Origin: a virus
IMG/VR virus record: IMGVR_UViG_3300022665_000379
Span: 1 to 45,969 of that record
Length of the DNA: 45,969 bases
Reading direction: 5' to 3' (one strand)
Of the stretch, positions 17,353-37,176 are shown one piece after another. Every line of letters starts with the position of its first letter. Position 1 is the first letter of the stretch. A model generated the notes under the pieces. That model worked only from the letters and a program-made list of their open reading frames with translations. It made no database searches and was not told the origin of the DNA. A program made the translations under genes and the position numbers.

Positions 17353-17355
17353 CGA

Positions 17356-18843: not shown

Positions 18844-18844
18844 C

Positions 18845-22664: not shown

Positions 22665-23924
22665 ATGGCCATAAGTTCTGAACCCTGGCGTCGTGAAGGT
22701 AACAACAGCTGGAATGATCTGGTCCGACGTGTCAACGAAGTTCTAGAAAATCCTCCAGACAATACAGATTGTGATCCAATCGCTCCCTTGCCCGAGATAG
22801 ATGCGGAATGTCATCAATGGACAACACAAGATATCACTGACATGCAGAATGCACTCAAGGAGGCATGTGACACAAACGTATTCACACCGGTGGTGCCCTG
22901 TGACAAGTGGGAGGTGTCGATCATAGATGAGATCGAAGCGGCCATTGTAGTAGGCTTCTGTGATTGTAAAACGCTGGACGAGTGTGTTCCATCTTGTGAT
23001 AATCAAGCCTTCCCCGAGGAGATATTCATAAAGAGTGTTGTGGAAGATAAATGTACGGAGAGTTTTGGATTGAGCTGCTCAGCGGCTGCTAGTGCTAGTA
23101 CTATTCTATTTAGTGAATATCTAGACTTACAAAATGCGTTCGATTTAGTTCATGCTGAATTATGCGTACTCGAAGAGGAAGTAGCAGATCTACAAGAAGA
23201 ACTGGACGCTTTGCAAGAGCAATTAGACGACCTCACTACTCAAAAGAACACTGAATGTATTGCAAATCCAGGAAGTGCTCTCTGTATATCCTTGACAGCA
23301 GCTGTCAGCGCCAAACAAGTTGAAGTGGATGAGAAGCAGACGGAGTTGGATGATAAAACAGCTGAACGAAATGTGAAGAGTGCTGAAGAAGCACTTGAGA
23401 GAACGGCAATGGTTGCTAAAGCTAATGAGACTGTCACCAATGCCAAATCTGCTATACAAGATGTGGGAGAAGAACCCTTCATTGATTTGGTTAGCTTGAA
23501 TGAACCATGGACAAATTTTGAATGTGATGATCCTCTTAGAATGCCTGCGTGTTCTGGACGTGATGCAAGTTTTTGTAAAACTTCTTGGAGTTTACAACGA
23601 CGAGTCTTTCAAAAGATTAGTAAGAGTTTATTCTTCGGTCCCTGTGACGAAAGTCTAGCACCAGGGTTCCCCAAAGATTTTTCCACGGTACTACAGGGAA
23701 CGACGACATTAGATGGTAGTCTTGTAGTGAGGCCATTTGGTGGCTGTGTGAGTGTCAGCGAAACTGCATGTTTTTCAACCAACTGTTCTGGAGGAATTTG
23801 TCCCCCATGTCAAACTGTTGAAAGCATTACGACTGAATACCGTCTCCTTGTATCACGACCCTTCCCCACCAGTCCCTTTGCGTGCAATACTGGGGTGCCT
23901 TGTACCCCTGGTGAGAACCCTTAA
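22665..23924 (+). CDS. Cysteine-rich coiled-coil late protein
   Basis: A 419-residue protein with GAGGGA before its ATG. It holds about 24 cysteines, most outside a central coiled coil (about residues 155-270: VLEEEVADLQEELDALQEQL, KQVEVDEKQTELDDKTAERN). The ends contain clustered C-x-C and C-x-x-C pairs (GFCDCKTLDECVPSC, CSGGICPPC). The layout suggests a disulphide-stabilised trimeric or rod-like extracellular part, for example a tail-tip or fibre component, though metal binding is also possible. It is the last late gene; its stop is 2 bases from the stop of the opposing gene. No family was recognised. Confidence 0.6.
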   Translation: MAISSEPWRREGNNSWNDLVRRVNEVLENPPDNTDCDPIAPLPEIDAECHQWTTQDITDMQNALKEACDTNVFTPVVPCDKWEVSIIDEIEAAIVVGFCDCKTLDECVPSCDNQAFPEEIFIKSVVEDKCTESFGLSCSAAASASTILFSEYLDLQNAFDLVHAELCVLEEEVADLQEELDALQEQLDDLTTQKNTECIANPGSALCISLTAAVSAKQVEVDEKQTELDDKTAERNVKSAEEALERTAMVAKANETVTNAKSAIQDVGEEPFIDLVSLNEPWTNFECDDPLRMPACSGRDASFCKTSWSLQRRVFQKISKSLFFGPCDESLAPGFPKDFSTVLQGTTTLDGSLVVRPFGGCVSVSETACFSTNCSGGICPPCQTVESITTEYRLLVSRPFPTSPFACNTGVPCTPGENP

Positions 23925-23926
23925 AC

Positions 23927-24175
23927 TCAATATTCGCCTCCTCGTAACTCATCTCGTTCCCGGCGCGTGGCTTCGAGATCGAATAGCAAATACTTCATGT
24001 CCAGACGCAACTGGCCCAACGCCTCCTGCACCAAATTCAAGATCCGCCGACGGCGACGGCTACCATCGACAACCTGTTGAAAGGCGATTTCGACCCTTCT
24101 GCGATGTTCATCGGGCAATCGTGAGATGGCGGTCCCCAACTTAGCCACGTCACGAGGAATTTGTTCATCGTTCAT
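23927..24175 (-). CDS. Small basic/acidic helical protein
   Basis: An 82-residue protein, last gene of the leftward arm. It is predicted to be all helix with heavy Arg content (RVEIAFQQVVDGSRRRRRIL, LLFDLEATRRERDELRGGEY). The gene starts directly at the stop of its upstream neighbour and ends 2 bases from the convergent late gene. A nucleic-acid contact is possible from the Arg run. No family was recognised. Confidence 0.5.
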   Translation of the reverse strand: MNDEQIPRDVAKLGTAISRLPDEHRRRVEIAFQQVVDGSRRRRRILNLVQEALGQLRLDMKYLLFDLEATRRERDELRGGEY

Positions 24176-24451
24176 CTAAGGAAATCTCTCCATGAGTGTG
24201 CGGACTTCATCCGGGTCCGGAGTACCACCTAGCTCACTCTCAGTATCATAATGCAACTCCTCATTGGAACACGCCGACTCCAACATGTAGAGTCCATGGG
24301 TAATTAGCTCGGCCTCTCGTTCGGTGAACAGCAGTTTATTGAGTTCTGAGACAAGCTCATCACGATCATAATGGTCGCTGCTCCACGTTTCCTCGTGGTC
24401 CAGTCCCATAGCTCTATATAGCCAGTCAGCAATTGTTTCTGCGAAAGTCAT
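24176..24451 (-). CDS. Hypothetical acidic helical protein
   Basis: A 91-residue acidic protein (MTFAETIADWLYRAMGLDHE, YDRDELVSELNKLLFTEREA, CSNEELHYDTESELG). It overlaps the end of the upstream gene by 26 bases and abuts the downstream gene, as expected in this packed operon. No domain was recognised. Confidence 0.55.
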   Translation of the reverse strand: MTFAETIADWLYRAMGLDHEETWSSDHYDRDELVSELNKLLFTEREAELITHGLYMLESACSNEELHYDTESELGGTPDPDEVRTLMERFP

Positions 24452-24593
24452 AAACCCTTCTCCTCTTCAGTAAACGTCGGAAGCACTTTGGACACCTGTA
24501 GTAAGGCGAACAGTGCGGACAAGGCGGACGACGATTAGAGTTCTCCAGTGAGGCCACGCGCTGTTTCAGTTGATCAAATTCTTTCTGTGTCAT
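24426..24593 (-). CDS. Small zinc-ribbon-like protein
   Basis: A 55-residue protein. The ATG at 24593 overlaps the stop of the micro-protein upstream (ATGA), which decides this start over an in-frame ATG at 24620. A short helix (TQKEFDQLKQRVASLENSN) is followed by two C-x-x-C knuckles (CPHC and CPKC) and a basic tail (FRRLLKRRRVYDFRRNNC). A single zinc site formed by the four cysteines is likely, which points to nucleic-acid or protein binding. Confidence 0.55.
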   Translation of the reverse strand: MTQKEFDQLKQRVASLENSNRRPPCPHCSPYYRCPKCFRRLLKRRRVYDFRRNNC

Positions 24594-24661
24594 AATCGGC
24601 CCACAATTATTGCTATGCATAGGAGTATAAGTAACACTATAAGCATCGTGACATTTGTCAT
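24590..24661 (-). CDS. 23-residue single-TM micro-protein
   Basis: A micro-protein made almost wholly of one membrane helix (MTNVTMLIVLLILLC followed by IAIIVGRL). Its ATG overlaps the stop of the exonuclease upstream and its stop overlaps the ATG of the zinc-ribbon gene, an ATGA join at both ends. Such coupling on both sides argues for real translation. Its function is unknown; small membrane peptides in phages can act on host membrane proteins. Confidence 0.55.
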   Translation of the reverse strand: MTNVTMLIVLLILLCIAIIVGRL

Positions 24662-25296
24662 GCTACATTCTCCGCGACACCCACCTGCGTCCAACGCTGG
24701 ATTAACTCAGCGACATCACGCGCATCGGCCAGGGCTGTGTGAGACACCCGTCCCTCCATCCCGGCCCTCTTCATGCAAGTCTTGGTGTCAGGAAGCACTG
24801 TGCCATCCACTTCGGGAGTCCAGTAGAGATTGCTCGGATCAATGAACCGGTGTCTGTGTGGTGCGAGCGTCCCAGGCAGTGCCTGCAATTTCGGAAGATC
24901 GAATACACCGAAGTTCTTACCCGCGAAAACGAACTTATCGTCTTCGAAACAATGCTTCCACTGCAGCATCCATTCATTCAGATACGAAATTGCGTGTGTG
25001 TAACGGACGTAAATACCCGGGTACTTAATCTCCTCCCTGCTAAAGTCCAGAACATCCACCCCCTTGGCCATGCGAACGCTGGCAATGGCGTACAGAATCT
25101 CCGCATTCATCGCAGCCGCATAGGGCTCCACGTAGTGGAATGACTCTCGCCAGACGTAGAATTCCAACACTGCGGGCACACACTTTGGGTAGTCGACGGA
25201 AGTCGTATCGAACATAGCCGCTCCTATCTGTATGATCGGTGCATCTACATCCAGACCAAGAGTTTCAGTGTCGATACTAATAGCAAAATTACTCAT
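24658..25296 (-). CDS. DEDDh 3'-5' exonuclease, Rv2179c-like
   Basis: A 212-residue protein. Motif I is ISIDTETLG (Asp and Glu metal ligands) followed by APIIQIGAAMFD, as in the Rv2179c-like exoribonuclease family. Motif II lies in FAGKNFGVFDLPKL, and motif III in SHTALADARDVAEL (catalytic His and Asp). An inserted FYVWRESFHYVEPYAAAMN segment matches the family. It should trim single-stranded RNA or DNA from the 3' end. It is overlapped at its stop by a 23-residue micro-protein. It could serve RNA processing or nucleotide recycling. Confidence 0.82.
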   Translation of the reverse strand: MSNFAISIDTETLGLDVDAPIIQIGAAMFDTTSVDYPKCVPAVLEFYVWRESFHYVEPYAAAMNAEILYAIASVRMAKGVDVLDFSREEIKYPGIYVRYTHAISYLNEWMLQWKHCFEDDKFVFAGKNFGVFDLPKLQALPGTLAPHRHRFIDPSNLYWTPEVDGTVLPDTKTCMKRAGMEGRVSHTALADARDVAELIQRWTQVGVAENVA

Positions 25297-25514
25297 TCTA
25301 CAATCTCCTCTTCGAGTCGCGATGCAATCTCGTCTAAAAGTTCCGGATGTTCAACAAAGCGTCTAAGAAGACTTTCCGAAATTGATGGACGCCTTTCATA
25401 ACCAGCATGCCAAGCAACCACAATCCCATTGATTGAAGTTCGCCAAGCACCCCATGTATCAAATTCAAATGTGACGACGGCTGCTGCCATCGCAAGTTCA
25501 TTCATGTTATCCAT
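25293..25514 (-). CDS. Small hypothetical protein
   Basis: A 73-residue protein. Its ATG lies 8 bases inside the end of the upstream gene; a second in-frame ATG three codons on is possible. A Trp-rich strand part (FEFDTWGAWRTSINGIVVAWHAG) precedes an acidic helical C-terminus (RRFVEHPELLDEIASRLEEE). It overlaps the exonuclease start by 4 bases. No family was recognised. Confidence 0.55.
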   Translation of the reverse strand: MDNMNELAMAAAVVTFEFDTWGAWRTSINGIVVAWHAGYERRPSISESLLRRFVEHPELLDEIASRLEEEIVE

Positions 25515-26076
25515 CGTTCTCTATTGCTCTCTCTAATTTCGCGAGAAACTCTTCCCCATTCGTCGTAAGCCAGCCGGCGGAGATCCCGCTGCCGTGTTCG
25601 GTAAAGCCACAGCTGTCAGCCCAGTACTTGAAGAACCAACAGGCGCGATCGTTCCCGTGTAGATTTGTTTCACGGAGCCTGTGTTTTCGAAACCAACTCT
25701 CAAAGTGCTCTCTCCCGACGACGTCCGGTGCTTTCTCCCCAATCAGCTTGAGCCCGTCACGGATATAGCGAGCATTGTCTTCCGGGACGCCGCAGCAACA
25801 GAAGTTTAATTCGTCGTGAATGTCATCAATGGTGGCCGGAGTCGGGGGCGGCTTGGCTAGATGGAACAACTTGTTCCAGGCATTCTCAAACCGATCTTCA
25901 GCTACGTAACACAAGAAGGCGTCAGAGTTGGTATATCTTGCTTTGTGTCGCAGTTCTAGGAGAACATCCTCCACTTCCTGACTTCGATGGTGGTCAGGGA
26001 AGAACAGCTTATCAGTCCCTCTCTGTAGCAGAATCCCCTTGAGCTTGACGTCGTATCCGAATTCAATGTTAGTCAT
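25507..26076 (-). CDS. Hypothetical protein
   Basis: A 189-residue soluble protein. Notable parts are LNFCCCGVPEDNARYIRDGL with three adjacent cysteines, a Trp/aromatic region (ACWFFKYWADSCGF), and a C-terminal GWLTTNGEEFLAKLERAI segment that recalls winged-helix 'T.xGxxfL' wings, suggesting but not proving a DNA-binding fold. It overlaps both neighbours by a few bases. No family was recognised. Confidence 0.6.
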   Translation of the reverse strand: MTNIEFGYDVKLKGILLQRGTDKLFFPDHHRSQEVEDVLLELRHKARYTNSDAFLCYVAEDRFENAWNKLFHLAKPPPTPATIDDIHDELNFCCCGVPEDNARYIRDGLKLIGEKAPDVVGREHFESWFRKHRLRETNLHGNDRACWFFKYWADSCGFTEHGSGISAGWLTTNGEEFLAKLERAIENDG

Positions 26077-26264
26077 ACCGGCACTCCTCCCATTCTACGA
26101 ATGAGATGTAGTGCTTCATGCTTAGTGGGAAATGAGAGTCCAACTTGACACTTCCCCGTCTGGGTTATGATGAGATTAAAACTGTTGTCAGTACACTTCG
26201 TCAATTTCATTTTGATGATCTGACTGGTGTTGATCCACTCATTCTCTTTGACTTCAATGATCAT
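26073..26264 (-). CDS. Small hypothetical protein
   Basis: A 63-residue beta-rich protein (EVKENEWINTSQIIKMKLTK, FNLIITQTGKCQVGLSFPTK) with a short final helix (HEALHLIRRMGG). The pattern is that of small phage regulators or anti-host proteins, but nothing specific is recognised. It overlaps the downstream gene by 4 bases. Confidence 0.55.
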   Translation of the reverse strand: MIIEVKENEWINTSQIIKMKLTKCTDNSFNLIITQTGKCQVGLSFPTKHEALHLIRRMGGVPV

Positions 26265-26265
26265 G

Positions 26266-26550
26266 TTACCAAGCCTTTATTGATTTGATTTGTCGGAGAA
26301 TCGCAATGGCAGTGTCACAAGCGATTGCCTTCTCTACTTTACCAACACCGACACCAACCTCGCATACACCCTTCGTGATCGAGCGTGTTGCCACACACGC
26401 TTCTTCTACACGTGTTACTGCATCCCTGAGTTTAGTCATTAAGTCGCCGGGGGCATAACCCGATATTTCGTCTACGATATTGGTGAGTTCAGTTAGTTCC
26501 TTCACCATAATCTGGTGATTTTCTCGATAAATGGGTGGATGCTTTCTCAT
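26266..26550 (-). CDS. Small helical hypothetical protein
   Basis: A 94-residue mostly helical protein (MVKELTELTNIVDEISGYAP, DLMTKLRDAVTRVEEACVAT). A middle GVCEVGVGVGKVEKAIACDT segment is Gly/Val-rich, and the end is a helix (AIAILRQIKSI). Its ATG overlaps the stop of the Thg1-like gene by 4 bases, so the two are coupled. Function is unknown. Confidence 0.55.
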   Translation of the reverse strand: MRKHPPIYRENHQIMVKELTELTNIVDEISGYAPGDLMTKLRDAVTRVEEACVATRSITKGVCEVGVGVGKVEKAIACDTAIAILRQIKSIKAW

Positions 26551-27260
26551 TGTGTCTCCGGTAAAGCTGCTGTAATGATGTCGTCAATGGCAGTAAAGTT
26601 CGGTGGGACACCATCACAGATCACCCATCCGAGGTCTCCTCTGTACATGAAAGTTCCATTTCGCTCCGCCAGCGTCAGATCAGTCGTCCAATTCTTCCCC
26701 ACACTGTGTAGCATTTCGTGCATATCTCCACAACTCTTACCATGAAGCTCAGTGTGGGAGAACACGGATTGTGCGTACATCGTGACACTGTTTCGATACC
26801 AGTCCTTGGCCCGCCACAAGAAATAATTCGCCACCTCCTCCAGAGGAATGTTGAATGCTCGGGCATCGAACTCCGCCTGTTTTCCCAGAGGCACATCAGT
26901 ATACTCCTGAAGATAACTATTGAAGACCCGAGTCGCAATTGATGCACTGATGCTTGTTAATTTGGCGAGGTTGTAGTCGAACCACGATTCTGTCTGAAGT
27001 GTGTCCCAGTCCGTAAGGAACAGGCTGATTTCATCTGACTGACGATATGCGACCTTACATCCCTGGGCCTCTTTTACTAACGCCTGCATCGCACTTTTGA
27101 TACCCCCCATGATACGCACATCGAACGGGTGGGTGAACCCCCGGGTGAAAGTATGAAACGCACGACCATCGACCCGGATGATTACAGGTGTCCGTCGAGT
27201 CAGTCTGAATTGAGCACGAGCTTCATAGTTAGCCTTCATACGGTCGCCGATGTCTTGCAT
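26547..27260 (-). CDS. Thg1-like 3'-5' polymerase (tRNAHis guanylyltransferase family)
   Basis: A 237-residue protein, the usual family length, with GGGAGG 8 bases before its ATG. Family motifs are intact: IIRVDGRAFHTFTRGF with Asp31, VAYRQSDEISLFL with Asp76 and Glu77 (the metal-binding carboxylates), and FDARAFNIPLEEVANYFLWR plus KDWYRNSVTMYAQSVFS, where the family has the 'WRxxDxxxN' motif. Thg1-like proteins add nucleotides to the 5' end of RNA in the 3'-5' direction, either G-1 of tRNAHis or templated repair of 5'-truncated tRNAs. In this window it accompanies an RNA ligase, so tRNA repair is the favoured inference. No tRNA gene was recognised nearby. Confidence 0.9.
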   Translation of the reverse strand: MQDIGDRMKANYEARAQFRLTRRTPVIIRVDGRAFHTFTRGFTHPFDVRIMGGIKSAMQALVKEAQGCKVAYRQSDEISLFLTDWDTLQTESWFDYNLAKLTSISASIATRVFNSYLQEYTDVPLGKQAEFDARAFNIPLEEVANYFLWRAKDWYRNSVTMYAQSVFSHTELHGKSCGDMHEMLHSVGKNWTTDLTLAERNGTFMYRGDLGWVICDGVPPNFTAIDDIITAALPETQ

Positions 27261-27309
27261 GGTACAGCCTCCCAGGGTTTGTGTTGATGTGACGGCAGAA
27301 GTCTTTCAT
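27229..27309 (-). CDS. Possible 26-residue micro-ORF
   Basis: A basic micro-ORF (MKDFCRHINTNPGRLYHARH then RRPYEG) whose ATG overlaps the stop of the upstream gene (ATGA). It reads into the start of the Thg1-like gene and may only serve to couple translation across the 45-base gap. No independent evidence of a functional peptide. Confidence 0.28.
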   Translation of the reverse strand: MKDFCRHINTNPGRLYHARHRRPYEG

Positions 27310-27572
27310 CGTATCTTAATCTCCCAACAACCGATCACAGCGACTTTGGGTATCTTGATAGGGCAGTCTACATGGTCGTTGTTTAAACATTGGCTGGCAG
27401 ATACGACATATGATTCATGATCTTCAGAAACAAGTAAACCGACCGTACGCATTCGCATATTACAATTATTCATGTAATCTTTCTCTTGCCAGCCTGTCTG
27501 ACCCATTGAATCGACCCAATGAATTTCAATGATTGGTAACTCATCATTATGTTGCTCTTTTAGAAGCATCAT
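27306..27572 (-). CDS. Small hypothetical protein
   Basis: An 88-residue protein (LPIIEIHWVDSMGQTGWQEK, YMNNCNMRMRTVGLLVSEDH, VPKVAVIGCWEIKIR-like end). Beta-rich composition with scattered Cys. It starts inside the end of the MazG-like gene by 4 bases. Its 'I.I.WVDS...GW' opening is seen in several small phage proteins of unknown role. No family named. Confidence 0.55.
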   Translation of the reverse strand: MMLLKEQHNDELPIIEIHWVDSMGQTGWQEKDYMNNCNMRMRTVGLLVSEDHESYVVSASQCLNNDHVDCPIKIPKVAVIGCWEIKIR

Positions 27573-27901
27573 AGCACCGTTGCGAACCCGTGCTTTTCGG
27601 AAGTTTTGTTGAATTTGCGTTTAACAGCTTCAGAAAGGTCAATGTGGAGCTGCATGGCTACAAGATCAGCACAGATGACGACGTCGCCCAACTCATCTTC
27701 GAGGTGTTCAATGTTGGGATCACCCCCAACTAGGCAGCGCAGATGCCGTTCAAATTTCTTGATTTGGTTGCACACCTCGCCGACTTCACCTGCGAGCTCC
27801 AGCCCTCGGAAGGTCAAATCTATCTCGCCATCTGTGTTGCCCCACTCAAAGTCTCGGGTAACGTTGGCCATCCGTAAGTCTTTGAAATCAATTGCCATCA
27901 T
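27569..27901 (-). CDS. MazG-like nucleotide pyrophosphohydrolase
   Basis: A 110-residue protein. A compact MazG fold is seen: GLELAGEVGEVCNQIKKFER (E-x-x-E metal site) and LEDELGDVVICADLVAMQL (E-x-x-D metal site), then a C-terminal helix (IDLSEAVKRKFNKTSEKHGF). Members hydrolyse NTPs or dNTPs to the monophosphate and pyrophosphate and tune nucleotide or alarmone pools. The first two Met codons are adjacent; a third (MANVTRDFEW) is also possible. It overlaps neighbouring genes by 4 and 14 bases. Confidence 0.85.
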   Translation of the reverse strand: MMAIDFKDLRMANVTRDFEWGNTDGEIDLTFRGLELAGEVGEVCNQIKKFERHLRCLVGGDPNIEHLEDELGDVVICADLVAMQLHIDLSEAVKRKFNKTSEKHGFATVL

Positions 27902-28202
27902 TTGGTCTCCAAGTTATCATGGCTTTGTCCCAGTAAACTTCAGCATCTCCCCGTGAGATCTCCAATACGCCGACAGCGAAGCACAACAATTCCTCCTTCT
28001 TCTGTTTAGCATTACGATTGATCAGATGCCATTGTTCCATAGTCTCCGGCATGGCTATATTTCGATGCCGTCTCGTACAGACTGTCTTATTATACGCCTC
28101 GCATGATTCATGGTATTCACTAACAGTGTCCGCCACGAAAGCAAACCTGGGGTCAGGATCATCATCATACGCCCCGCTGTAGAATTCTCCCTGGTCAATC
28201 AT
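27888..28202 (-). CDS. Hypothetical protein
   Basis: A 104-residue protein. An acidic N-terminus (FYSGAYDDDPDPRFAFVADT) is followed by a helical Glu/Lys-rich body (LINRNAKQKKEELLCFAVGV) and a Trp-containing end. Its start overlaps a 47-residue gene just upstream (28195-28338). No domain was recognised. Confidence 0.55.
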   Translation of the reverse strand: MIDQGEFYSGAYDDDPDPRFAFVADTVSEYHESCEAYNKTVCTRRHRNIAMPETMEQWHLINRNAKQKKEELLCFAVGVLEISRGDAEVYWDKAMITWRPNDGN

Positions 28203-28338
28203 CGGACATCATCTCCTGAGCTATATCGTAGCCCTCCCAGTTGTCGACACCAGCTCCTCGCAGAGCTTCAAGGAAATTCTGGTCTGCTATAAGCTGATTG
28301 AATTGTTCAACAGTAATGGTAATAGTCTCGGCGCTCAT
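28195..28338 (-). CDS. 47-residue hypothetical protein
   Basis: A short gene in the gap between two longer ones: MSAETITITVEQFNQLIADQ, a helical NFLEALRGAGVDNWEGYDIA, and the end QEMMSDD. Its ATG overlaps the stop of the upstream gene by one base (TAATG) and its stop overlaps the start of the next gene by 8 bases. A predicted helix-turn arrangement with an acidic tail; the opening TITITVEQFNQLI is common in small phage proteins. Function unknown. Confidence 0.6.
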   Translation of the reverse strand: MSAETITITVEQFNQLIADQNFLEALRGAGVDNWEGYDIAQEMMSDD

Positions 28339-28637
28339 TAGTACCCCTCCTCTATCCATTCCTGATACTGCTTTTGGGCCTCTTCATCCTTTGTGTGAAA
28401 CTCACAAGGTAAGATTTTCAAACAATATCCATCTGGCGAGCTTATACCGCTATCCGTTTTCTGTTGCTGTAGCTTTCCAACAAGTTGACGATATAACACG
28501 TCGTTTGATTTCGCCATATCGTCCGCTGTATCAATATCGTCCAGAAGGTCGTAAAGGTGAATCACCACACGTTGCAGATACTCCATATCGGTAAATTCGC
28601 TAATCGGAGTTCCCACGTCTTCAGTCACATCACTCAT
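28338..28637 (-). CDS. Hypothetical protein
   Basis: A 99-residue protein with a helical, acidic first half (DMEYLQRVVIHLYDLLDDID) and a second half with two cysteines (DGYCLKILPCEFHTKDEEA) and a C-terminal helix (QKQYQEWIEEGY). It overlaps its upstream gene by 4 bases. No family recognised. Confidence 0.55.
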   Translation of the reverse strand: MSDVTEDVGTPISEFTDMEYLQRVVIHLYDLLDDIDTADDMAKSNDVLYRQLVGKLQQQKTDSGISSPDGYCLKILPCEFHTKDEEAQKQYQEWIEEGY

Positions 28638-29155
28638 GGCTCACGTACCTCACATTTGTTGCAAATCTCGGTAGTAACGTGCTCGTTGATGAGCACACAA
28701 AATGGGACGACCACAGGTGGGTCACTGTACTTCTTAGACACCCGTCGATGCCGACAGGGCAGCCATGGCGGTGACCAGTGGCCATCGGCCTCTTGGGTCC
28801 ACCCCTCGGGTGCGTTGGGGATCTCCCCATGTATGCTGCCATCGTCAGTGATGACATAGGGACGTTTGTTCGTGATTTCCGGCACGGACGCGGGGCCCAA
28901 GGGGGCCTGCTCCAGTTGGGGCCAGAACTTCTCGGGACATCCTGCTACCAACATAGCAGCCTTCGCTGGAATGTAACAACCGCACGACAGACACTGATTC
29001 TTCTTCCTGAACTCACAAGGCTCACAGATACTCAGGCGTTCCTTGTATTGCTCCTCCGTAGTTTTCGAGAATCCTGATCCCGCGAACTTCAACATGCTCA
29101 TTGTGAACGCCCACCCCTTCTGAGCTACGGAAGGGGTTTTTTCATTTTCAGCCAT
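28634..29155 (-). CDS. Cys-rich zinc-binding-like protein
   Basis: A 173-residue protein if it starts at ATG 29155, which overlaps the upstream stop by 8 bases; a longer GTG form from 29197 is also open. The centre has a cluster ICEPCEFRKKNQCLSCGCYI then GCPEKFWPQ, with six to seven cysteines in C-x-x-C pairs, a probable zinc site. Another pair lies near the C-terminus (EICNKCEV). This Cys pattern (CxxCExxxxxxCxxCGCxIxxK...CP...W) recurs in small phage proteins of unknown role. A scaffold for nucleic acid or protein contacts is possible. Confidence 0.65.
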   Translation of the reverse strand: MAENEKTPSVAQKGWAFTMSMLKFAGSGFSKTTEEQYKERLSICEPCEFRKKNQCLSCGCYIPAKAAMLVAGCPEKFWPQLEQAPLGPASVPEITNKRPYVITDDGSIHGEIPNAPEGWTQEADGHWSPPWLPCRHRRVSKKYSDPPVVVPFCVLINEHVTTEICNKCEVREP

Positions 29156-29375
29156 TGAGGTGCTCTTGGTTACGTTTCTGGTAATACCCTTCATCACAAT
29201 CGATCATGATAGTCCGCGTCCAAGTAACCGATCCCTCAACTAACGAACAGGCCGCGCCGGGGTAGACCCGAATCTCCTGGATAGTCCCCTCCCACGTACC
29301 CTTGACTGGTGCATCACGAGGAAATTCGGATAAGGCATCGGTAAGATCACCGACAGTTTCAATTACTTTGCTCAC
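29148..29375 (-). CDS. Small hypothetical protein
   Basis: A 75-residue protein (VIETVGDLTDALSEFPRDAP, GTIQEIRVYPGAACSLVEGS). The 'VGDLTDALSEFPRDAPV' opening resembles small phage proteins with an 'L...L..fP.d..V' pattern of unknown function. It abuts the RNA ligase gene by one base. Confidence 0.55.
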   Translation of the reverse strand: MSKVIETVGDLTDALSEFPRDAPVKGTWEGTIQEIRVYPGAACSLVEGSVTWTRTIMIDCDEGYYQKRNQEHLNG

Positions 29376-30268
29376 TAGAACACCTCCGACAAAAGTTCCT
29401 TAACACGGCACGACACGAGCTTGGATAACTTCTTGAAATCAATTGTGGGGTACTTGTACTTCTTGACGAAATTCCAAGATTCCTCACGCACCAGGTCGTA
29501 GTATACTGTGTTGAGTAGGCGAGGTATGTATCGGCTGGTCCAGCCTAAGGGATCATCACTTTCAATTTTGGCCTTCACCTTATCAACCATCGCCTTCGTG
29601 ACGAACTCGTTCGCAATCCTCAGCTCCACAGTAGACTCACCTACCTTGGTCGGGGGGCCCATTTCACGAATATGCTTTTCTTTGAACTCTGCCGCCACAA
29701 CCTTGGCCCACGTGGTCCGGCCATAGCGGTTCCGGAAGTCGTAGTTCTTGATGACGATGCCCTCACCTTGGCAGCCATCCTGCATGAGGAAGGTATTCTG
29801 AGGCAGGAGCTGGTTGAAATCGTATGTCAATGCATTCTCAACTACAGCCATGCACGGGATGTAGTCAATGCCATACTCCTCCAGCTTGGATCGATATTCG
29901 TCATACGGTAAATGATACGGTGCTTCTCCATCAATCACAACATCGAACACATAGAAGCGGCGCCAGGCTTCCTCACGATATGTCTTCAGAGAATGGGGCA
30001 CGAGCCACTCTCCGTACAAACGAAGGCCCTGCCATGTCATGAAGAAGTCCCGTATACCGGAACTCTGGACCCACGCTGCGAACCCAGCGTTGTCATCCTC
30101 TGGGGTGATCACTCGTCGGCGGGACGCGCATCGCACTTCGCCATCTTCCAACCACACCGAGGAGTTGGTACCATCTATCTTGGGGAACACATGGCAAGTG
30201 CCGTCCAGTAACCCATCAACCTCGGTGGTCCCGAGCCGCTCAATATGTTGATACTTGTTAAACATCAT
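29375..30268 (-). CDS. RNA ligase (nucleotidyltransferase superfamily)
   Basis: A 297-residue protein starting at ATG 30268 behind GGGAGAG; a longer form from 30307 is open but would overlap the upstream gene more. Motif I is FPKIDGTNSSVW with the Lys that takes AMP. Motif IIIa-like sequence is RRFYVFDVVIDGE; motif IV is GEGIVIKNYDF; motif V is TWAKVVAAEFKEKH. The SRRRVITPEDDNAGFAAW segment is typical of the RNA ligase (PF09414-type) family. It should seal 5'-phosphate to 3'-hydroxyl RNA ends. With the Thg1-like protein and the HAD phosphatase it may repair broken tRNAs. A DNA ligase role is less likely given the family features. Confidence 0.88.
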   Translation of the reverse strand: MMFNKYQHIERLGTTEVDGLLDGTCHVFPKIDGTNSSVWLEDGEVRCASRRRVITPEDDNAGFAAWVQSSGIRDFFMTWQGLRLYGEWLVPHSLKTYREEAWRRFYVFDVVIDGEAPYHLPYDEYRSKLEEYGIDYIPCMAVVENALTYDFNQLLPQNTFLMQDGCQGEGIVIKNYDFRNRYGRTTWAKVVAAEFKEKHIREMGPPTKVGESTVELRIANEFVTKAMVDKVKAKIESDDPLGWTSRYIPRLLNTVYYDLVREESWNFVKKYKYPTIDFKKLSKLVSCRVKELLSEVF

Positions 30269-30524
30269 CTTCTCTCCCGCATCTAATCGGACATGATCGG
30301 CAGTCAAAAGAATTCACTTCTTCCCAATACAGAGCGTGGTCTTCATTCACGCAGTAGAACCTGGCAATCCCGTTGTCGACTCCGTGAATACGTTTGTGGC
30401 ACTCTGGCCACTTCGCCGGCTCCACAGTCACCTCCGTGCATGTGTACTCGGAGAGGAGATCGACTTGGTGTCCTTCCGGCGGGAAGGGCAGAAAGTAAGC
30501 GGGGAAGGCTGGTTCTTTATTCAC
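30258..30524 (-). CDS. Small Cys-rich hypothetical protein
   Basis: An 88-residue protein with a GTG start overlapping the upstream stop (GTGA) and GGGGAA before it. Pro-rich opening (PAFPAYFLPFPPEGHQ), then cysteines at TCTEV, PECHK, FYCVNE and SFDCRSCPIRCGRE. A zinc site formed by the C-terminal cysteines is plausible. No family recognised. Confidence 0.55.
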   Translation of the reverse strand: MNKEPAFPAYFLPFPPEGHQVDLLSEYTCTEVTVEPAKWPECHKRIHGVDNGIARFYCVNEDHALYWEEVNSFDCRSCPIRCGREDDV

Positions 30525-30787
30525 TCTATTGGATTCCCCTGCTCATCATACGAGGCACACAACTCTTCAAACATTGACGCGAGATGTTGGATAGACTGCA
30601 ATCGCGGGCCCAAGTTATCCAGGAACGCGCCTACCGAAAAGGGGTTCATCTCATCGCCAATTTCTTCCAGATCATCAACTATCCCCTCCATTAAGGTATC
30701 ATGCATATCCTCCACCCGTTCTAGTTGTCCGCGTATGCGATTCAGAAGTTGGGGATTATCCTTCTGCCATTGCTTGATAGTTTGCAT
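30521..30787 (-). CDS. Helical hypothetical protein
   Basis: An 88-residue protein starting at ATG 30787, which has AGGAG 7 bases upstream; a longer form from 30808 is open but less supported. It is all helix (MQTIKQWQKDNPQLLNRIRG, VEDMHDTLMEGIVDDLEEIG, QHLASMFEELCASYDEQ). It overlaps the end of the HAD gene by about 30 bases. Function unknown. Confidence 0.55.
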   Translation of the reverse strand: MQTIKQWQKDNPQLLNRIRGQLERVEDMHDTLMEGIVDDLEEIGDEMNPFSVGAFLDNLGPRLQSIQHLASMFEELCASYDEQGNPIE

Positions 30788-31352
30788 TCTCAATCTCCTG
30801 GAATTCAATTTCTAATGTATCCATGATATCGCACATGCGATTATCATTCCACGGGCGCGGCAGGACTATCGCATGCCCACCCCACTCACGCATGGCATCA
30901 CAATTGGACGGAAGATCGTCAATCAACACCGTATCCTCACGAGCTAACCACCACTTTCGGGGTGTGATTGCATACTGACATTGCATCCAATCAGGCAAAT
31001 TTCTCTCGATCCATTCAAACTTACCTGCCATACATTCCGGACATTCGATCGGAGTTGTTGCAATCAAAATGTTGGTGGGTCCTACGTGCTGACAAGCCCA
31101 ATCAAGAATCTCATGGAAGTCTGGCGTCAGCGTGGCATGGCTCCACACGAAACGGGTTACTGAACCCCAGAATTCCGCGAGATCCATTTTAGGATTCAAT
31201 GTCATTGTAGCCAATGCACAACGAACGTCAAAGCCGCAGTCAATAGGGTACTGATCATACGAGTTTATGTCAACGCCGAAGTGCCGTAGAAGATCCAACG
31301 TGATAGTGTTTAGCACATCATCCATGTCGAGAACGATTCGCTTAATCTTCAT
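30756..31352 (-). CDS. HAD-family 5'-nucleotidase-like phosphatase
   Basis: A 198-residue protein. Motif I is VLDMDDVLN (nucleophile Asp and the second Asp). Motif II Thr lies in ILIATTPIECPE. Motif III Lys is PRKWW. Motif IV is VLIDDLPSNCDAM. The TL...GGHAIVLPRPWN ending is typical of 5'(3')-deoxyribonucleotidases and related phage HAD enzymes. It likely dephosphorylates nucleotides, or 3'-phosphate ends of nucleic acid as in polynucleotide phosphatases; the sequence alone does not choose between these. The start overlaps the upstream gene by 11 bases. Confidence 0.8.
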   Translation of the reverse strand: MKIKRIVLDMDDVLNTITLDLLRHFGVDINSYDQYPIDCGFDVRCALATMTLNPKMDLAEFWGSVTRFVWSHATLTPDFHEILDWACQHVGPTNILIATTPIECPECMAGKFEWIERNLPDWMQCQYAITPRKWWLAREDTVLIDDLPSNCDAMREWGGHAIVLPRPWNDNRMCDIMDTLEIEFQEIENANYQAMAEG

Positions 31353-31683
31353 AGATACACCCCACGTAGAACTTGCCGTGCTTTTTCAGCAATTTGAGAA
31401 TAACGCTAGATGCCTTAGAATAAAATGTTATTCTACGCCCCTCAATTAAAGCCCAACCGCTTTGATATTCTCCTGTGGATTCAAATTTCACACGATCCTG
31501 GCCTGGCCTATCATAGGCAGTGAATCTGATATTACGAGCATTATTGGGTATATCAAAATACTCCAATATGCTCTCGATACAGATCATCCAACCATAATCT
31601 TTTTGGGGTCCGTAAAGGATACCCCACGTATTAAGACCACTTGGAGTATTTGTATTCAGCTTAGGTGTTGTAAACAAGATCAT
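31342..31683 (-). CDS. Tandem paralogue B, hypothetical
   Basis: A 113-residue protein with an ATGA overlap to its upstream copy. The shared pattern with that copy is MI-x-(F/Y)-x-TP-x-L at the start, IC(I/L)E-x-(I/V)-x-E(Y/F)F-x-IP in the middle, then R-x-(G/A)-x-DRV-x-(F/L), and Y(V/I)-x-C(I/V)YE(D/E) at the end. Two gene copies thus lie head to tail. It is a beta-rich small soluble protein with no known family here. Confidence 0.6.
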   Translation of the reverse strand: MILFTTPKLNTNTPSGLNTWGILYGPQKDYGWMICIESILEYFDIPNNARNIRFTAYDRPGQDRVKFESTGEYQSGWALIEGRRITFYSKASSVILKLLKKHGKFYVGCIYED

Positions 31684-32009
31684 GGTGCCCCCTCCTCATA
31701 GACGCATTGGATGTACAGCTGGTCGCGTCCGGCCATGTGACGGTTGACAATAGAATTCATTGTGTAATAGAAACTCACCTCCTCACCGTCTAGACTAAAT
31801 TCAATGATTCCACCTAAATCCTCCGCCGTCAATTCCACACGATCCTCTGCGGGGTGGTTGTGAACAATAAATTGCACACTCTTTGTATCCGCAGGAATCA
31901 CAAAGAATTCACGAACTCTTTCCAAACAGATGTGCAAGTTCCCCTTAGAGAAAGATGGGAACCCCAGATATTCTCTGAGTCTTAATTCGGGTGTCTCGTA
32001 GATGATCAT
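31680..32009 (-). CDS. Tandem paralogue A, hypothetical
   Basis: A 109-residue protein. ATG 32009 overlaps the stop of the upstream gene (ATGA) and lines up with the start of paralogue B; an in-frame start at 32021 is less likely. It contains MIIYETPELRLREYLGF, ICLERVREFFVIPADTK, HNHPAEDRVELTAEDLGG and YIQCVYEEGAP. It diverged from paralogue B but kept its spacing, which suggests two related roles or a heterodimer. Confidence 0.6.
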   Translation of the reverse strand: MIIYETPELRLREYLGFPSFSKGNLHICLERVREFFVIPADTKSVQFIVHNHPAEDRVELTAEDLGGIIEFSLDGEEVSFYYTMNSIVNRHMAGRDQLYIQCVYEEGAP

Positions 32010-32188
32010 ACGTCTTTCCATCCTCTCAGTCTCCGTCGGAGACGCTTAAAAATCCCATTCTCCTGGCGCCATTCAATGTTGTCTCGACGAATCTCAATCC
32101 GTTTCACCCGCCGCTTCTGCGCACTATTTGCGGTGTGTGTCAAAGTGAGGACCGCGATGATCCCCAGGACGATGTATACGAGTGTCAT
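32006..32188 (-). CDS. Small single-TM basic protein
   Basis: A 60-residue protein with one N-terminal membrane segment (LVYIVLGIIAVLTLTH) and a strongly basic cytosolic-type tail (KRRVKRIEIRRDNIEWRQEN, KRLRRRLRGWK). The layout is that of type I/III small membrane proteins. It overlaps a second TM gene (32124-32297) by 65 bases in a different frame. Membrane role in the secreted cassette is inferred. Confidence 0.6.
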   Translation of the reverse strand: MTLVYIVLGIIAVLTLTHTANSAQKRRVKRIEIRRDNIEWRQENGIFKRLRRRLRGWKDV

Positions 32189-32297
32189 AAAACCTTCTCT
32201 TTTCGATATTAGTGACTAGTAAAGTGATGGCAAACAGTATACCAACGGCAATCCAGATGGTGATTGGTGATTCGATCATGTCTGTGCTGTAACTCAT
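32124..32297 (-). CDS. 57-residue single-TM protein
   Basis: A small gene whose ATG overlaps the upstream stop (ATGA). Its membrane helix (SPITIWIAVGILFAITLLVT) follows an acidic N-terminal head (MSYSTDMIE) and precedes a basic tail (NIEKRRFYDTRIHRPGDHRG). The last 65 bases overlap the next TM gene. The coupling supports it; function unknown. Overlapping TM genes can form a pair such as holin-antiholin or spanin subunits, but no lysis motif is seen. Confidence 0.55.
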   Translation of the reverse strand: MSYSTDMIESPITIWIAVGILFAITLLVTNIEKRRFYDTRIHRPGDHRGPHFDTHRK

Positions 32298-32557
32298 GCT
32301 GCCCCCTCTGTTAACACTAACTTGCCAGTTTTGTTTGCTGTGCCGGAATTAAACTCCTCACCATTAGCCCATTTATAGGTCCCTACATCATCCTTGAAGA
32401 CTACTACACCACCCCCTCGAACACGATACCCAAGGAAGTTCTTGACAAGGTACCCAGAACGTTTCAATGCACGGGCAATCGGGCAATCTGTTACATCACA
32501 ATACTCGCCTTCGAGATCTTCAGGAATAATTGTCAATTCAGCGGGTAGATCTTTCAT
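32294..32557 (-). CDS. Small hypothetical protein
   Basis: An 87-residue protein (MKDLPAELTIIPEDLEGEYC, DCPIARALKRSGYLVKNFLG, GGGVVVFKDDVGTYKWANGE). The CDVTDCPIARALKR segment is typical of small phage proteins in which an alpha-helical 'DCPIArAlKr' strip precedes beta strands; it is widely found but unnamed. It overlaps both the TadG-like stop and the TM start (ATGA). Confidence 0.6.
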   Translation of the reverse strand: MKDLPAELTIIPEDLEGEYCDVTDCPIARALKRSGYLVKNFLGYRVRGGGVVVFKDDVGTYKWANGEEFNSGTANKTGKLVLTEGAA

Positions 32558-33726
32558 TTCACTAACCTCAGTTGGTGTACGTTTGAACCTTCTGTTATTG
32601 GCTGAACGGCCAAGTACTTGGTGTTGCCTTGCAGATCCACATGCATGATCTTGACGGCAACAAACTTCTTGATAACGAATTGGGAATTAGTTCCGTTCCC
32701 ACTGGCACTGGAATAGAGGGCTAGAAATCTTGGTTGACCAATGATACCTTCATAGTCACCTGACCCGCCCATGAAAGCTTTCTCCACTGTAGCAACCATA
32801 CCGGTCTGACCAGAAACCGTATCGCCCACCGAGATCTGGTTCCCATGGAAGGCCATATCATTGGCACTGGGTCCCTTATCGATCTGACGCATCAAAGTAG
32901 CAGCAGAACTGTTAGCTCCGATCTGGATAGCTCCGAAGTTACCTGGCGGCATACCCACACCATTCCAGGCACCGGGGAATATGAACACCTCCGGGATACC
33001 ATCATCCCCGAAATTGTCACCATCTCCCCCGGAGGCCAGTGTATTCCACTTGTCTTCGCTTGTGGTGAATGGCAGCAACGTGGGGTAATCAACCCGCGCT
33101 ATCGCTGTCTGAGACGTCTCGAATATGCCGTTGAGATTGGGAAAGAAGAGACCTGCCGAGCCATTCGTGTGATCCCTACGTATATGGATCGTAACCTGGA
33201 CGGCATTGGGTTGAACATCGTCTGGGGTCATCACCCCATCCTGGAACCGGCCAACGATAATATCCCCGCCCTCAGTATTCCAGGAGTTAGGGTCCGTGGT
33301 GTAGTCACCAGGCCGCACATTGTTTACGTGTAGATCTACAAACTGCCGGGCAGTGTCATGGCCCTCACCAGTGTAGGTGACTCCAATGCCGATCTTCGTA
33401 AGCTCCAAGGCATTATTGACGTGTAACGCCCCGGCACCAGCAAGGGCCCCCGAATCCGCGCATCTCTGTGCTTCAGCCTTAACCAGCCCCATGTAGGCAT
33501 GATCTATGACGAAAGCCATCAGGAGACACATAAAGGACATAAGGATGGCTGCAAGCGGAGCGATGGCTCCACACCGGATTATCATGGCAGCTCGCTCGTA
33601 CGGAAAATTATCCTGGAGCTTCCGGTAATGTCGCTCATTAGCTCGTTTCTTAATCTTACTGGACACGGAAATCTCCACACCATAAAGTAACAGGATGGAT
33701 AACGCAGCGAGTGCAAGGTCAATCAT
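32554..33726 (-). CDS. TadG-like (Flp pilus-type) membrane protein
   Basis: A 390-residue protein starting at ATG 33726, which has GGGAG 6 bases upstream; a longer form from 33756 is open but lacks a ribosome site. Two membrane helices are seen: DLALAALSILLLYGVEISVS (about residues 3-22) and GAIAPLAAILMSFMCLLMAF (about 52-72). After the second comes VIDHAYMGLVKAEAQRCADS then GALAGAGAL, the mark of TadE/TadG-type pilin-like proteins, where a helix exposes 'A-x-A-A-L-A-G-A'. The rest (about 90-390) is a beta-rich extracellular domain rich in Gly/Asn/Asp. TadG normally serves tight-adherence pilus systems of bacteria. No other Tad component occurs in the window. A putative own promoter precedes it. 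Confidence 0.7.
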   Translation of the reverse strand: MIDLALAALSILLLYGVEISVSSKIKKRANERHYRKLQDNFPYERAAMIIRCGAIAPLAAILMSFMCLLMAFVIDHAYMGLVKAEAQRCADSGALAGAGALHVNNALELTKIGIGVTYTGEGHDTARQFVDLHVNNVRPGDYTTDPNSWNTEGGDIIVGRFQDGVMTPDDVQPNAVQVTIHIRRDHTNGSAGLFFPNLNGIFETSQTAIARVDYPTLLPFTTSEDKWNTLASGGDGDNFGDDGIPEVFIFPGAWNGVGMPPGNFGAIQIGANSSAATLMRQIDKGPSANDMAFHGNQISVGDTVSGQTGMVATVEKAFMGGSGDYEGIIGQPRFLALYSSASGNGTNSQFVIKKFVAVKIMHVDLQGNTKYLAVQPITEGSNVHQLRLVK

Positions 33727-33763
33727 GAGGGACTCCCAGGGATACAAAAAGGTCATTATCTTC

Positions 33764-33792
33764 AGTATACCTTACGAATTGAGTATGAGCAA
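33764..33792 (-). promoter_or_regulatory. Putative sigma70-like promoter before the TadG-like gene
   Basis: On the minus strand, TTGCTC (plus 33787-33792) and TATACT (plus 33764-33769) are separated by 17 bases. The -10 box matches the consensus at five of six positions, the -35 box at three. The start would fall about 30 bases before ATG 33726. It lies in the 158-base gap between the two genes, the largest gap in the leftward arm. Confidence 0.4.
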
Positions 33793-33914
33793 ATAACAGG
33801 AAATTACTTGCATCGCGCACCCCAGGAAACACAGGGAGGAGAACAAACTCCACCCTGGGCTTCTAGCGTGATAACTAGTGAACTCAGATACCAGATCATG
33901 AACATAACCAAGGA

Positions 33915-34421
33915 TCACCTCACGATGATGTAACGGACTCCCCGATACATGAAACTCGGCACAGGTTCTATCTTGGGCGTTTTCGGACGAGGCTGTGGAG
34001 CCTGATAGACTGGCTGAATCGGCACCAGAGGTACATTCCATGGAGTCGCCTGGTACACCGGTCGCCATGGATTAGTGATGAAGGCTCCCATGCCAAATCC
34101 TCCAAATCCTCCAAACGTTCCACCAGCTGCCACTGCACTTGCCTCCACGTTCAAATTGACGACATTGCTGGCACTGGAGCTGGCCGACGCAGTTTGAGAT
34201 TGCGTCTGGTGCTGTCGGTTCACATTGGTGTTGTGATTGTGAGGGGATCGAGGGGATCGAGGGGGCTTTGGCGGCTTCGGTGGCTTCTGGTGATGACCGT
34301 AGCCATTGCCCTTGTGCTCAGCATGCCCCTTCCCCTGTTGGTTTTCGTGCCGGTCCCCAGGGGAGCCCAGTGCCGGCGCTGCAAGCGCGAATGTAAGTAG
34401 TACTGCTATGAAGGTCTTCAT
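33915..34421 (-). CDS. Secreted Pro/His/Gly-rich protein
   Basis: A 168-residue protein with AGGAGAG before its ATG. A Sec signal peptide (MKTFIAVLLTFALAAPALG, cut near ALG-SP) is followed by a His/Lys/Gly/Pro segment (HAEHKGNGYGHHQKPPKPPK), a Ser/Gln/Ala/Asn low-complexity zone (QTQSQTASASSSASNVVNLN), a Gly/Phe strip (GGFGGFGMGAFITNPW), a Pro/Gln-rich part, and an end FMYRGVRYIIVR. It is a small exported, mostly disordered protein; no enzyme motif. The His cluster could bind metal. Sits with the TadG-like gene. Confidence 0.65.
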   Translation of the reverse strand: MKTFIAVLLTFALAAPALGSPGDRHENQQGKGHAEHKGNGYGHHQKPPKPPKPPRSPRSPHNHNTNVNRQHQTQSQTASASSSASNVVNLNVEASAVAAGGTFGGFGGFGMGAFITNPWRPVYQATPWNVPLVPIQPVYQAPQPRPKTPKIEPVPSFMYRGVRYIIVR

Positions 34422-34429
34422 GTTCTCTC

Positions 34430-34897
34430 CTATTGTCTAACGTAGGGGTTAATGATCACAACCGGTCCACCACCCCAGCGGGTCTGCGTGCGGTAGGTAC
34501 GTTGCATACTAATGCCCGAATAACGAGTTTCGGAAGTCGCACCAATTGTTGCACCAGTGGATGAAGCTTGATCGCTCTGATTAAGATCGCTGGTTGAAGT
34601 GTAATCATTGGTCTGCACAAGAACATCCAAGGCAGGATTCCGGACAATCCATCCATCCGCGCGATCACGGGCTCGCTGGTAGGCAGCCGCATTCTGCGCG
34701 CGTGCCCATTTAGCGAAAGCTTCATCGCTCATAGGTACGGTATAGATCGGGAGCTTATCAAACACACCGATATTCTCAAAAGGCATAGCCATAGTGTGAA
34801 CACCCAACTCAGAGTCAACGGGTGCCATTGGCCCCGGTAGATCTGCGTTCGGAAAAGGAGTTGTGATCAGAAACAGTAATGGAAACAGAAAATGCAT
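34430..34897 (-). CDS. Secreted hypothetical protein
   Basis: A 155-residue protein. ATG 34897 has GGAGAG before it; an upstream in-frame start would lack this. A signal peptide (MHFLFPLLFLITTPFPNA) precedes the mature part: an acidic stretch, helical MSDEAFAKWARAQNAAAYQR, a Ser/Thr/Gln/Asn-rich zone (TSTSDLNQSDQASSTGATIG), and an end GGGPVVIINPYVRQ. There is no lipobox cysteine, so it is not a lipoprotein spanin. Ser/Gln/Asn-rich middles occur in both secreted neighbours. Function unknown. Confidence 0.62.
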   Translation of the reverse strand: MHFLFPLLFLITTPFPNADLPGPMAPVDSELGVHTMAMPFENIGVFDKLPIYTVPMSDEAFAKWARAQNAAAYQRARDRADGWIVRNPALDVLVQTNDYTSTSDLNQSDQASSTGATIGATSETRYSGISMQRTYRTQTRWGGGPVVIINPYVRQ

Positions 34898-34907
34898 AGG
34901 TTCTCTC

Positions 34908-35000
34908 CTATAAAGTGATTGCATACACAACGAAGAATATCATTGACAGGGATACCCAGCCGATGACGAAACAAAGTACACAGGTGTCTATATCTTTCAT
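34908..35000 (-). CDS. 30-residue single-TM micro-protein
   Basis: MKDIDTCVLCFVIGWVSLSM plus IFFVVYAITL: one membrane helix after a short acidic head, with AAGGA 8 bases before the ATG. It fills most of the gap between the methyltransferase and the secreted protein, and its stop lies 10 bases before the next gene's start. A ribosome site and placement support it. Confidence 0.5.
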   Translation of the reverse strand: MKDIDTCVLCFVIGWVSLSMIFFVVYAITL

Positions 35001-35012
35001 GAATTTAATCCT

Positions 35013-35756
35013 TCAGGCAGCCTCGGGGTGCTCCTCTACTAAGTGTTGGTAGTAAACTTTGGATTTCTCGATCAAGGTACACTGGCGGTCAATCCTCTTG
35101 CACACTCGAAGCGTAGTACCGGTGCCCCCAAAGGGGTCCAGCACATGATCACCGGGTCGCGTGGTCAGACGGATCGCCCGCTCGACTAGATCCTCATGGA
35201 GCTGTGTCTCATGCCACTTGCGTTTCACCTTGGCATTGCCAGGGACTCTCGGGTAGTCGTAAACGTCGTTCGGGAATGTGTACTCGTCCCAGTAAACATC
35301 GCCGGGCACTTTCCCCCGCTTATCGGCTCGCTTATCCCCATTCAGTTGTCTCCACGACGGAATCCGAATGTCATCGGGATACTCTGTATGGTCTCGTACC
35401 ATAAGACGCCAGAGAGGACGGTGGGCATTCCCGAGCGCGGAGCCATTCTGTTGGTAGAACGTGATGACTTGAACTCCTGGGTCGAATTTGTATTCGGGGT
35501 TGTACTTAATCCAGTACGCCATAGTGTTGGCAACTTCAAGGGTCCATCTAGCATTGAAGGACACCCAAAGAACAGGTGTGTGAGCAACTGCTTCTATGAT
35601 CCAACAATGCAGTAAATGGGAGTATTCGTCATAGGGTAGTTGGTCATCAACATCCTCGTATTTGAGTCCTATGTTGTCCGGAGGGTCCATGAAGATACAA
35701 TCCGCTGGCCGTAAATGTTCCAGGCAATCACCGAGAATGATATTATGATTCTTCAT
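35013..35756 (-). CDS. DNA methyltransferase (N4-cytosine/N6-adenine type)
   Basis: A 247-residue protein. Catalytic motif IV (IFMDPPDNIGLKY) lies near residue 23, and the SAM-binding motif I (HVLDPFGGTGTTLRVC) near 215, the order of beta-class amino-methyltransferases. The central part (TVLWVSFNARWTLE..., KRKWHETQLHEDLVERAIR) holds the target-recognition features; RRIWHETQ-like sequences before the last motif are common in this class. It should methylate adenine N6 or cytosine N4. No restriction endonuclease lies beside it, so protection from host restriction or regulation is likely. Specificity is unknown. Confidence 0.85.
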   Translation of the reverse strand: MKNHNIILGDCLEHLRPADCIFMDPPDNIGLKYEDVDDQLPYDEYSHLLHCWIIEAVAHTPVLWVSFNARWTLEVANTMAYWIKYNPEYKFDPGVQVITFYQQNGSALGNAHRPLWRLMVRDHTEYPDDIRIPSWRQLNGDKRADKRGKVPGDVYWDEYTFPNDVYDYPRVPGNAKVKRKWHETQLHEDLVERAIRLTTRPGDHVLDPFGGTGTTLRVCKRIDRQCTLIEKSKVYYQHLVEEHPEAA

Positions 35757-35940
35757 CTAGAACCTCCACGCCACAAATCATTCCAACACTTAGTACCCAA
35801 CTGTCCCCGGTATACTCCCAGATCGCACGCCGCCCATCATCTCCGAGAATAATGAAACGGTTGGGATTGATCTCTTCATACCCCTGCTTACGGAGTGACT
35901 CACGGAAAGCATCCGCCATTCCTATTGCTAGAAATTTCAT
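35743..35940 (-). CDS. Small hypothetical protein
   Basis: A 65-residue protein (MADAFRESLRKQGYEEINPN, RAIWEYTGDSWVLSVGMICG). A helix and three to four strands are expected. It overlaps the methyltransferase start by 14 bases and the exonuclease stop by 4. No family recognised. Confidence 0.55.
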   Translation of the reverse strand: MKFLAIGMADAFRESLRKQGYEEINPNRFIILGDDGRRAIWEYTGDSWVLSVGMICGVEVLDEES

Positions 35941-36955: not shown

Positions 36956-37176
36956 GCTACTAATTCCACATCTTTAAGTGTGACTAATCTCCCGATGTCA
37001 GGCAGATATGATAGAATTATAGGCCCACTTTCAAGAAAACAAACAACTTGATTCTCATCGCTATCTTCCTTTCGCACGACAAAATTTAAGTCTCCATCAG
37101 TGTCCACATACAATTGACCCAGGTCAAGATCATCGATGGATAAATCCGATGCTTCGATTTTCAATTTCAAGTACAT
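36952..37176 (-). CDS. Small beta-rich hypothetical protein
   Basis: A 74-residue protein starting at ATG 37176 (MYLKLKIEASDLSIDDLDLG, LYVDTDGDLNFVVRKEDSDE), with an upstream in-frame extension to 37269 that would lie inside the previous gene. The 'DLNFVVR..D' and 'VVCFLESGPII' segments resemble the C-terminal domain of the preceding protein (VDDQEDVCQVLDEEKGNRRVVCLSVG...), hinting at a common origin. Function unknown. Confidence 0.55.
   Translation of the reverse strand: MYLKLKIEASDLSIDDLDLGQLYVDTDGDLNFVVRKEDSDENQVVCFLESGPIILSYLPDIGRLVTLKDVELVA

Follow-up and report, generated by a model that had tools for sequence, protein, structure and literature searches.

Thg1-like polymerase, RNA ligase and a deoxyribonucleotidase-type HAD phosphatase in a probable accessory gene block of an uncultivated tailed phage

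The DNA analysed here, referred to below as the window, is an IMG/VR record of 45,969 bases from an uncultivated tailed phage. The major head protein and tail genes lie on its plus strand and are followed by a long run of minus-strand genes. Neither a terminase nor a portal was recognised among the window genes examined, and the record is therefore probably incomplete. No tRNA gene was found in the window, and a megablast search of positions 20000-44000 against an annotated phage collection returned no near phage. Amid the structural genes, positions 6919-7731 encode a GIY-YIG-like endonuclease (sequence judged by eye), which is likely a homing endonuclease.

From 24176 to 33756 every gene lies on the minus strand, mostly overlapping its neighbour; no gap exceeds 45 bases, and the largest, of that length, stands directly before the Thg1 gene. 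Promoter and terminator scans gave results at shuffle level. This run contains the genes for a Thg1-like polymerase, an RNA ligase and a HAD phosphatase, with a MazG gene and small genes of unknown function between them. A preliminary description of this DNA had placed the three in one packed operon with intact motifs, and both the packing and the catalytic motifs are borne out. The features of the locus are as follows.

22665..35936, no strand: segment separating the tail module from the replication module, missing from syntenic relatives (comparison with contigs L167, L168 and L169)
24655..25296, minus strand: DnaQ-like 3'-5' exonuclease with a weak Rv2179c-like match (phrog_192, E=1.3e-11; PF16473)
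26547..27260, minus strand: Thg1-like 3'-5' polymerase (TLP), 237 aa (PF04446, phrog_4717, BtTLP 4kgk; catalytic residues)
27569..27901, minus strand: MazG-type nucleotide pyrophosphohydrolase, 110 aa (PF03819, E=8.8e-8; phrog_229, E=2.9e-11)
29375..30268, minus strand: ATP-dependent RNA ligase, 297 aa (PF09414, phrog_548; motifs I-V)
30756..31352, minus strand: HAD phosphatase of 5'(3')-deoxyribonucleotidase (NT5C) type, 198 aa (profile against PDB, family scan, AlphaFold2/Foldseek)
35013..35756, minus strand: N4/N6 DNA methyltransferase; a counterpart lies near the HAD gene in 17 of 30 related loci (PF01555, E=3.1e-24)

The Thg1-like protein matches PF04446 (E=5.5e-29; 101.2 bits against a cut-off of 29.2) and phrog_4717 (E=1.7e-78). 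Its closest solved relative is BtTLP of Bacillus thuringiensis (PDB 4kgk, E=5e-48), with which it has about 43% identity over 200 residues and shares the active-site carboxylates, S75, K100 and R134. Among 32 aligned proteins R29, D31, S75, D76, E77, K100 and R134 are invariant, and the metal-binding carboxylates (D31, D76, E77) and the activation/transfer residues (S75, K100, R134) are all present. The eukaryotic HINNLYN motif is absent, the aligned segment reading WYRNSVTM. All polymerase residues examined are invariant but one: BtTLP has Lys43 where the window protein has His44, a position held by K or R in 29 of the 32 aligned sequences, and His is rare there in phage Thg1-like proteins. 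Lys43 of BtTLP has been tied to ATP-dependent activation of the 5' end (PMC6471195). Bacterial Thg1-like proteins carry out Watson-Crick-templated nucleotide addition to 5'-truncated tRNAs, their preferred substrate, and are able to add G-1 in vitro (PMC6471195). The preliminary description had this enzyme rebuild bases lost at anticodon breaks; we infer that such replacement is unlikely, because the unpaired anticodon loop gives no template for the addition. In the phages FADO and Grayson, which have different hosts (L029, 412-2779, and L024, 497-2837), genes for NAD+ supply, namely a PRPP synthetase/transferase and a nicotin(amid)ate phosphoribosyltransferase, are found within a few kb of Thg1, possibly a common counter-defence neighbourhood.

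The RNA ligase matches PF09414 (E=5.6e-17) and phrog_548 (E=3.4e-51). The TTG listed as its start codon is probably wrong, and an ATG at 30268 gives the protein of 297 aa. Single-sequence IMG/VR searches with the ligase and with the capsid protein returned no relatives, and an alignment of three ligases then gave 80 ligase loci. Motifs I (K30-I-D-G-T-N), III, IIIa, IV and V are retained across 83 relatives, with K30-x-D-G-x-N, E87, E169-G170, K174 and K189 present in 82-83 of the 83 sequences. Motifs and length are the same in the phrog_548 ligases of Cellulophaga phage phi19:3 (gp003, 54% identity), of MW202692, and of Listeria and Staphylococcus phages. A score of 23.4 bits against the curated cut-off of 197.15 (TIGR02307) rules the protein out as a T4 Rnl2 equivalog.

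The HAD protein scores 18.2 bits against the NT5C Pfam family, below the cut-off of 24.8, and for this reason a family of 25 relatives was assembled from IMG/VR. The motifs DxD, T, K and DD are retained in the 25 relatives, and 24 of them match NT5C (E<=0.1). Searched against the PDB, the family profile finds credible matches only to 5'(3')-deoxyribonucleotidases and to a protein designed on their scaffold (best E=2.8e-7). An AlphaFold2 model from the 25-sequence alignment reached a pLDDT of 95, superseding an earlier one built from 3 sequences (pLDDT 65), and by Foldseek each of its top 16 PDB matches is either a deoxyribonucleotidase or a protein designed on that scaffold. The mammalian and Staphylococcus enzymes (1mh9, 1z4i, 2jao, 3bwv) share with it the HAD fold, the motifs and a C..GK..W-type motif, at TM-scores (query) of 0.61-0.68; identity is only about 21%, and the substrate specificity of the window protein is a prediction. 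HAD_PNKP (PF25109), the T4 Pnkp-type 3'-phosphatase, is matched neither in the window nor among the 25 relatives, and the Swiss-army-knife HAD (PF18143) does not match the window protein and matches one of the 25 relatives at E=0.095. Family, profile and fold all point to the NT5C type and not the Pnkp type, and the reading as an RNA 3'-phosphatase was rejected on these grounds.

The proposal that the HAD enzyme clears 3'-phosphates in RNA repair was not supported, and the alternative mentioned at the time, service to nucleotide pools, is favoured by the NT5C-like assignment. Because the enzyme is of NT5C type and has MazG in the same gene run, nucleotide turnover is the simplest reading of its role. 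Among 30 loci with a HAD relative, 17 have an N4/N6 DNA methyltransferase like that of the window within 10 kb of it, and this linkage points to a function connected with DNA modification or the supply of dNTPs. At 37167-37964 the window encodes a dATP/dGTP diphosphohydrolase N-terminal domain (PF18909, E=1.6e-23), a third nucleotide-metabolism gene besides MazG and HAD. The exonuclease at 24655-25296, described earlier as Rv2179c-like, just reaches the cut-off of that family (PF16473, 27.1 bits against 27), but the phage DNA-polymerase-exonuclease family (phrog_192) fits it better.

Comparison with relatives places these genes in an accessory block. Three contigs (L167, L168, L169) show synteny with the window over tail, primase, ParB and helicase genes. 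They retain window positions 17353-22101 and an exonuclease corresponding to 35937-36557, with about 1.8 kb or less between the two, as against about 13 kb in the window (22665-35936), where Thg1, MazG, the ligase, HAD, the DnaQ-like exonuclease and the methyltransferase lie. No convincing Thg1 or RNA ligase is present in the records of the three contigs, and both are absent from the 81.8 kb record behind L169. A Thg1 match in L168 was discounted, as it covers 22 residues, falls below the cut-off and lies inside a helicase frame. In the stretches compared, L002 and L013, which carry the nearest relatives of Thg1, and L112, which carries a relative of the ligase, have no further gene in common with the window. 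The absence of the block from the syntenic contigs, together with the lack of other genes shared with the Thg1 and ligase relatives, makes it likely that these genes were acquired separately. Also encoded in the block is a protein of 400 aa (32554-33756) whose N-terminal part matches TadE/G-like proteins of Flp pilus assembly (PF13400, E=4e-5).

Co-occurrence of the three genes in other phages had been set beforehand as a test of the repair set, and it largely failed. Within 10 kb, in each direction of the test, none of 80 ligase loci had Thg1 or a window-type HAD, none of 33 Thg1 loci had a window-type ligase or HAD, and none of 30 HAD loci had Thg1 or a window-type ligase; many IMG/VR records are fragmentary, and scanning the collection by pattern recovers only part of each family. 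Across whole records, Thg1 was present in 1 of 50 with the ligase, about 15 kb away and frame-broken. Thg1 occurs in 127 of 50,697 annotated phages, a base rate at which at least one ligase record with Thg1 arises by chance in 12% of samples. The Thg1 gene of this ligase-bearing contig (L161, near 1528-1538) is frame-shifted within a run of T, which may be an assembly error. Of 30 whole HAD records, none had Thg1 and 3 had an RNA ligase of any kind scoring above the cut-off. A PF09414 ligase is present in 3 of 17 Thg1 records (40-170 kb) against 3 of 17 size-matched HAD records, i.e., there is no enrichment. Ligases are frequent in larger Thg1 phages, but RNA ligases have been reported from every jumbo phage group (PMC7824862). 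Single phages have an RNA-repair gene near Thg1, including polynucleotide kinase (L023), RtcB (L031), a CCA-type enzyme (L025) and a T4-like RnlA (L030). These cases speak for RNA maintenance by each enzyme, not for the trio.

Repair of fresh anticodon cuts made by metal-independent nucleases needs partners such as polynucleotide kinase and RlaP. For the kinase, the window of this probably incomplete record gave no AAA_33, HAD_PNKP or PNK-profile match, in searches that rested on few seeds, and a kinase could lie beyond it. Profile searches for RlaP, RtcB and a CCA enzyme were likewise without a match in this fragment. RlaP is absent from the 50 records searched, nearly all of them ligase relatives. 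The ligase relatives are mostly solitary; a polynucleotide kinase adjoins the ligase in a few of their contigs, and a Pnkp-type phosphatase is found in 3 of 48.

We consider it probable that the locus is an accessory block of separately acquired genes, in which Thg1 and the ligase serve RNA maintenance and HAD serves nucleotide turnover. The Thg1-like protein would most likely rebuild or edit tRNA 5' ends, adding nucleotides in the 3'-5' direction on a template, and the ligase would most likely seal RNA breaks with 3'-OH and 5'-phosphate ends. During infection both enzymes probably maintain host or phage RNA in a usable state, perhaps in the face of defences that cut tRNA. HAD, for its part, would most likely dephosphorylate (deoxy)nucleoside monophosphates, such as those that MazG frees from NTPs or dNTPs. 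Against the reading of separate genes, transcription shared with Thg1 could mean that they cooperate in this one phage. A single pathway for tRNA cut by host anticodon nucleases, with HAD removing 3'-phosphates, Thg1 restoring bases and the ligase sealing, seems to us very improbable. It would suit the single packed run with intact motifs, the Thg1-kinase-ligase neighbourhoods known from bacteria (PMC2904730) and the place of HAD phosphatases in phage RNA repair (PMC7824862); however, this HAD is of neither PNKP nor Swiss-army-knife type, the window yielded no kinase, the three genes do not co-occur in relatives, and Thg1-like addition requires a template. What stands of the three-enzyme repair set in the preliminary description is that Thg1 and the ligase belong to families with a proposed role in RNA repair, while the NT5C-like HAD and the unconserved trio speak against the set.

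Thg1 and the ligase might also mend, as a pair, RNA cut by metal-dependent nucleases (e.g., VapC-type PIN or Toprim effectors), since the resulting 3'-OH and 5'-phosphate ends need no kinase or phosphatase. Both enzyme classes act on 5'-phosphate ends, the two genes share a run, and neither a kinase nor a PNKP phosphatase was found in the window. This record is probably incomplete, however, the pairing recurs only in the single frame-broken case among the 50 ligase records, and ligases are not enriched in Thg1 phages relative to size-matched controls; we therefore regard the pair as unlikely. Distinctly improbable is the narrower version in which a kinase-free pair answers metal-dependent tRNA-cutting defences and the His44 Thg1 activates with GTP. 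It is also quite unlikely that Thg1 acts in tRNA-His maturation only, adding G-1 for phage or host, with the ligase acting on unrelated RNA or nicked duplex. This is the named function of the family (phrog_4717), but the window has no tRNA gene, and G-1 is already gene-encoded in most bacteria. The addition of G-1 by bacterial Thg1-like proteins in vitro speaks for such a role, and their preference for truncated tRNA against it (PMC6471195).

If the Thg1-ligase pair does cooperate, phages would have a way to reverse tRNA cleavage without polynucleotide kinase, and bacterial and phage Thg1-like proteins would gain a biological role. At present, the analysis is of value mainly as a negative finding: relatives do not repeat the gene set, and its phosphatase is one of nucleotide metabolism.

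RNA repair by Thg1, ligase and kinase, phages included, was proposed already in 2010 and 2021. Anantharaman and colleagues connected Thg1 to polynucleotide kinase and RNA ligase, proposing for phage 201phi2-1 a repair that counters host defence (PMC2904730), and Iyer and colleagues found Thg1, RNA ligases and HAD phosphatases among jumbo phage genes (PMC7824862). The window shares with these neighbourhoods and phage sets the enzyme classes and the idea of counter-defence, whereas it lacks the kinase and its Thg1-ligase pairing is not conserved. With the tRNA repair of T4 by Pnkp and Rnl1 the common point is a phage-encoded RNA ligase; the window differs in having no Pnkp, a PF09414 ligase without a listed Rnl1-family match, and a HAD of a different family. 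MW202692, in which RlaP, ligase and polynucleotide kinase stand in a row, shows the form of a fuller repair operon around a ligase of the window type, which here stands without both partners. We read the window genes as a probable assortment of known parts and not as a repair set in its own right.
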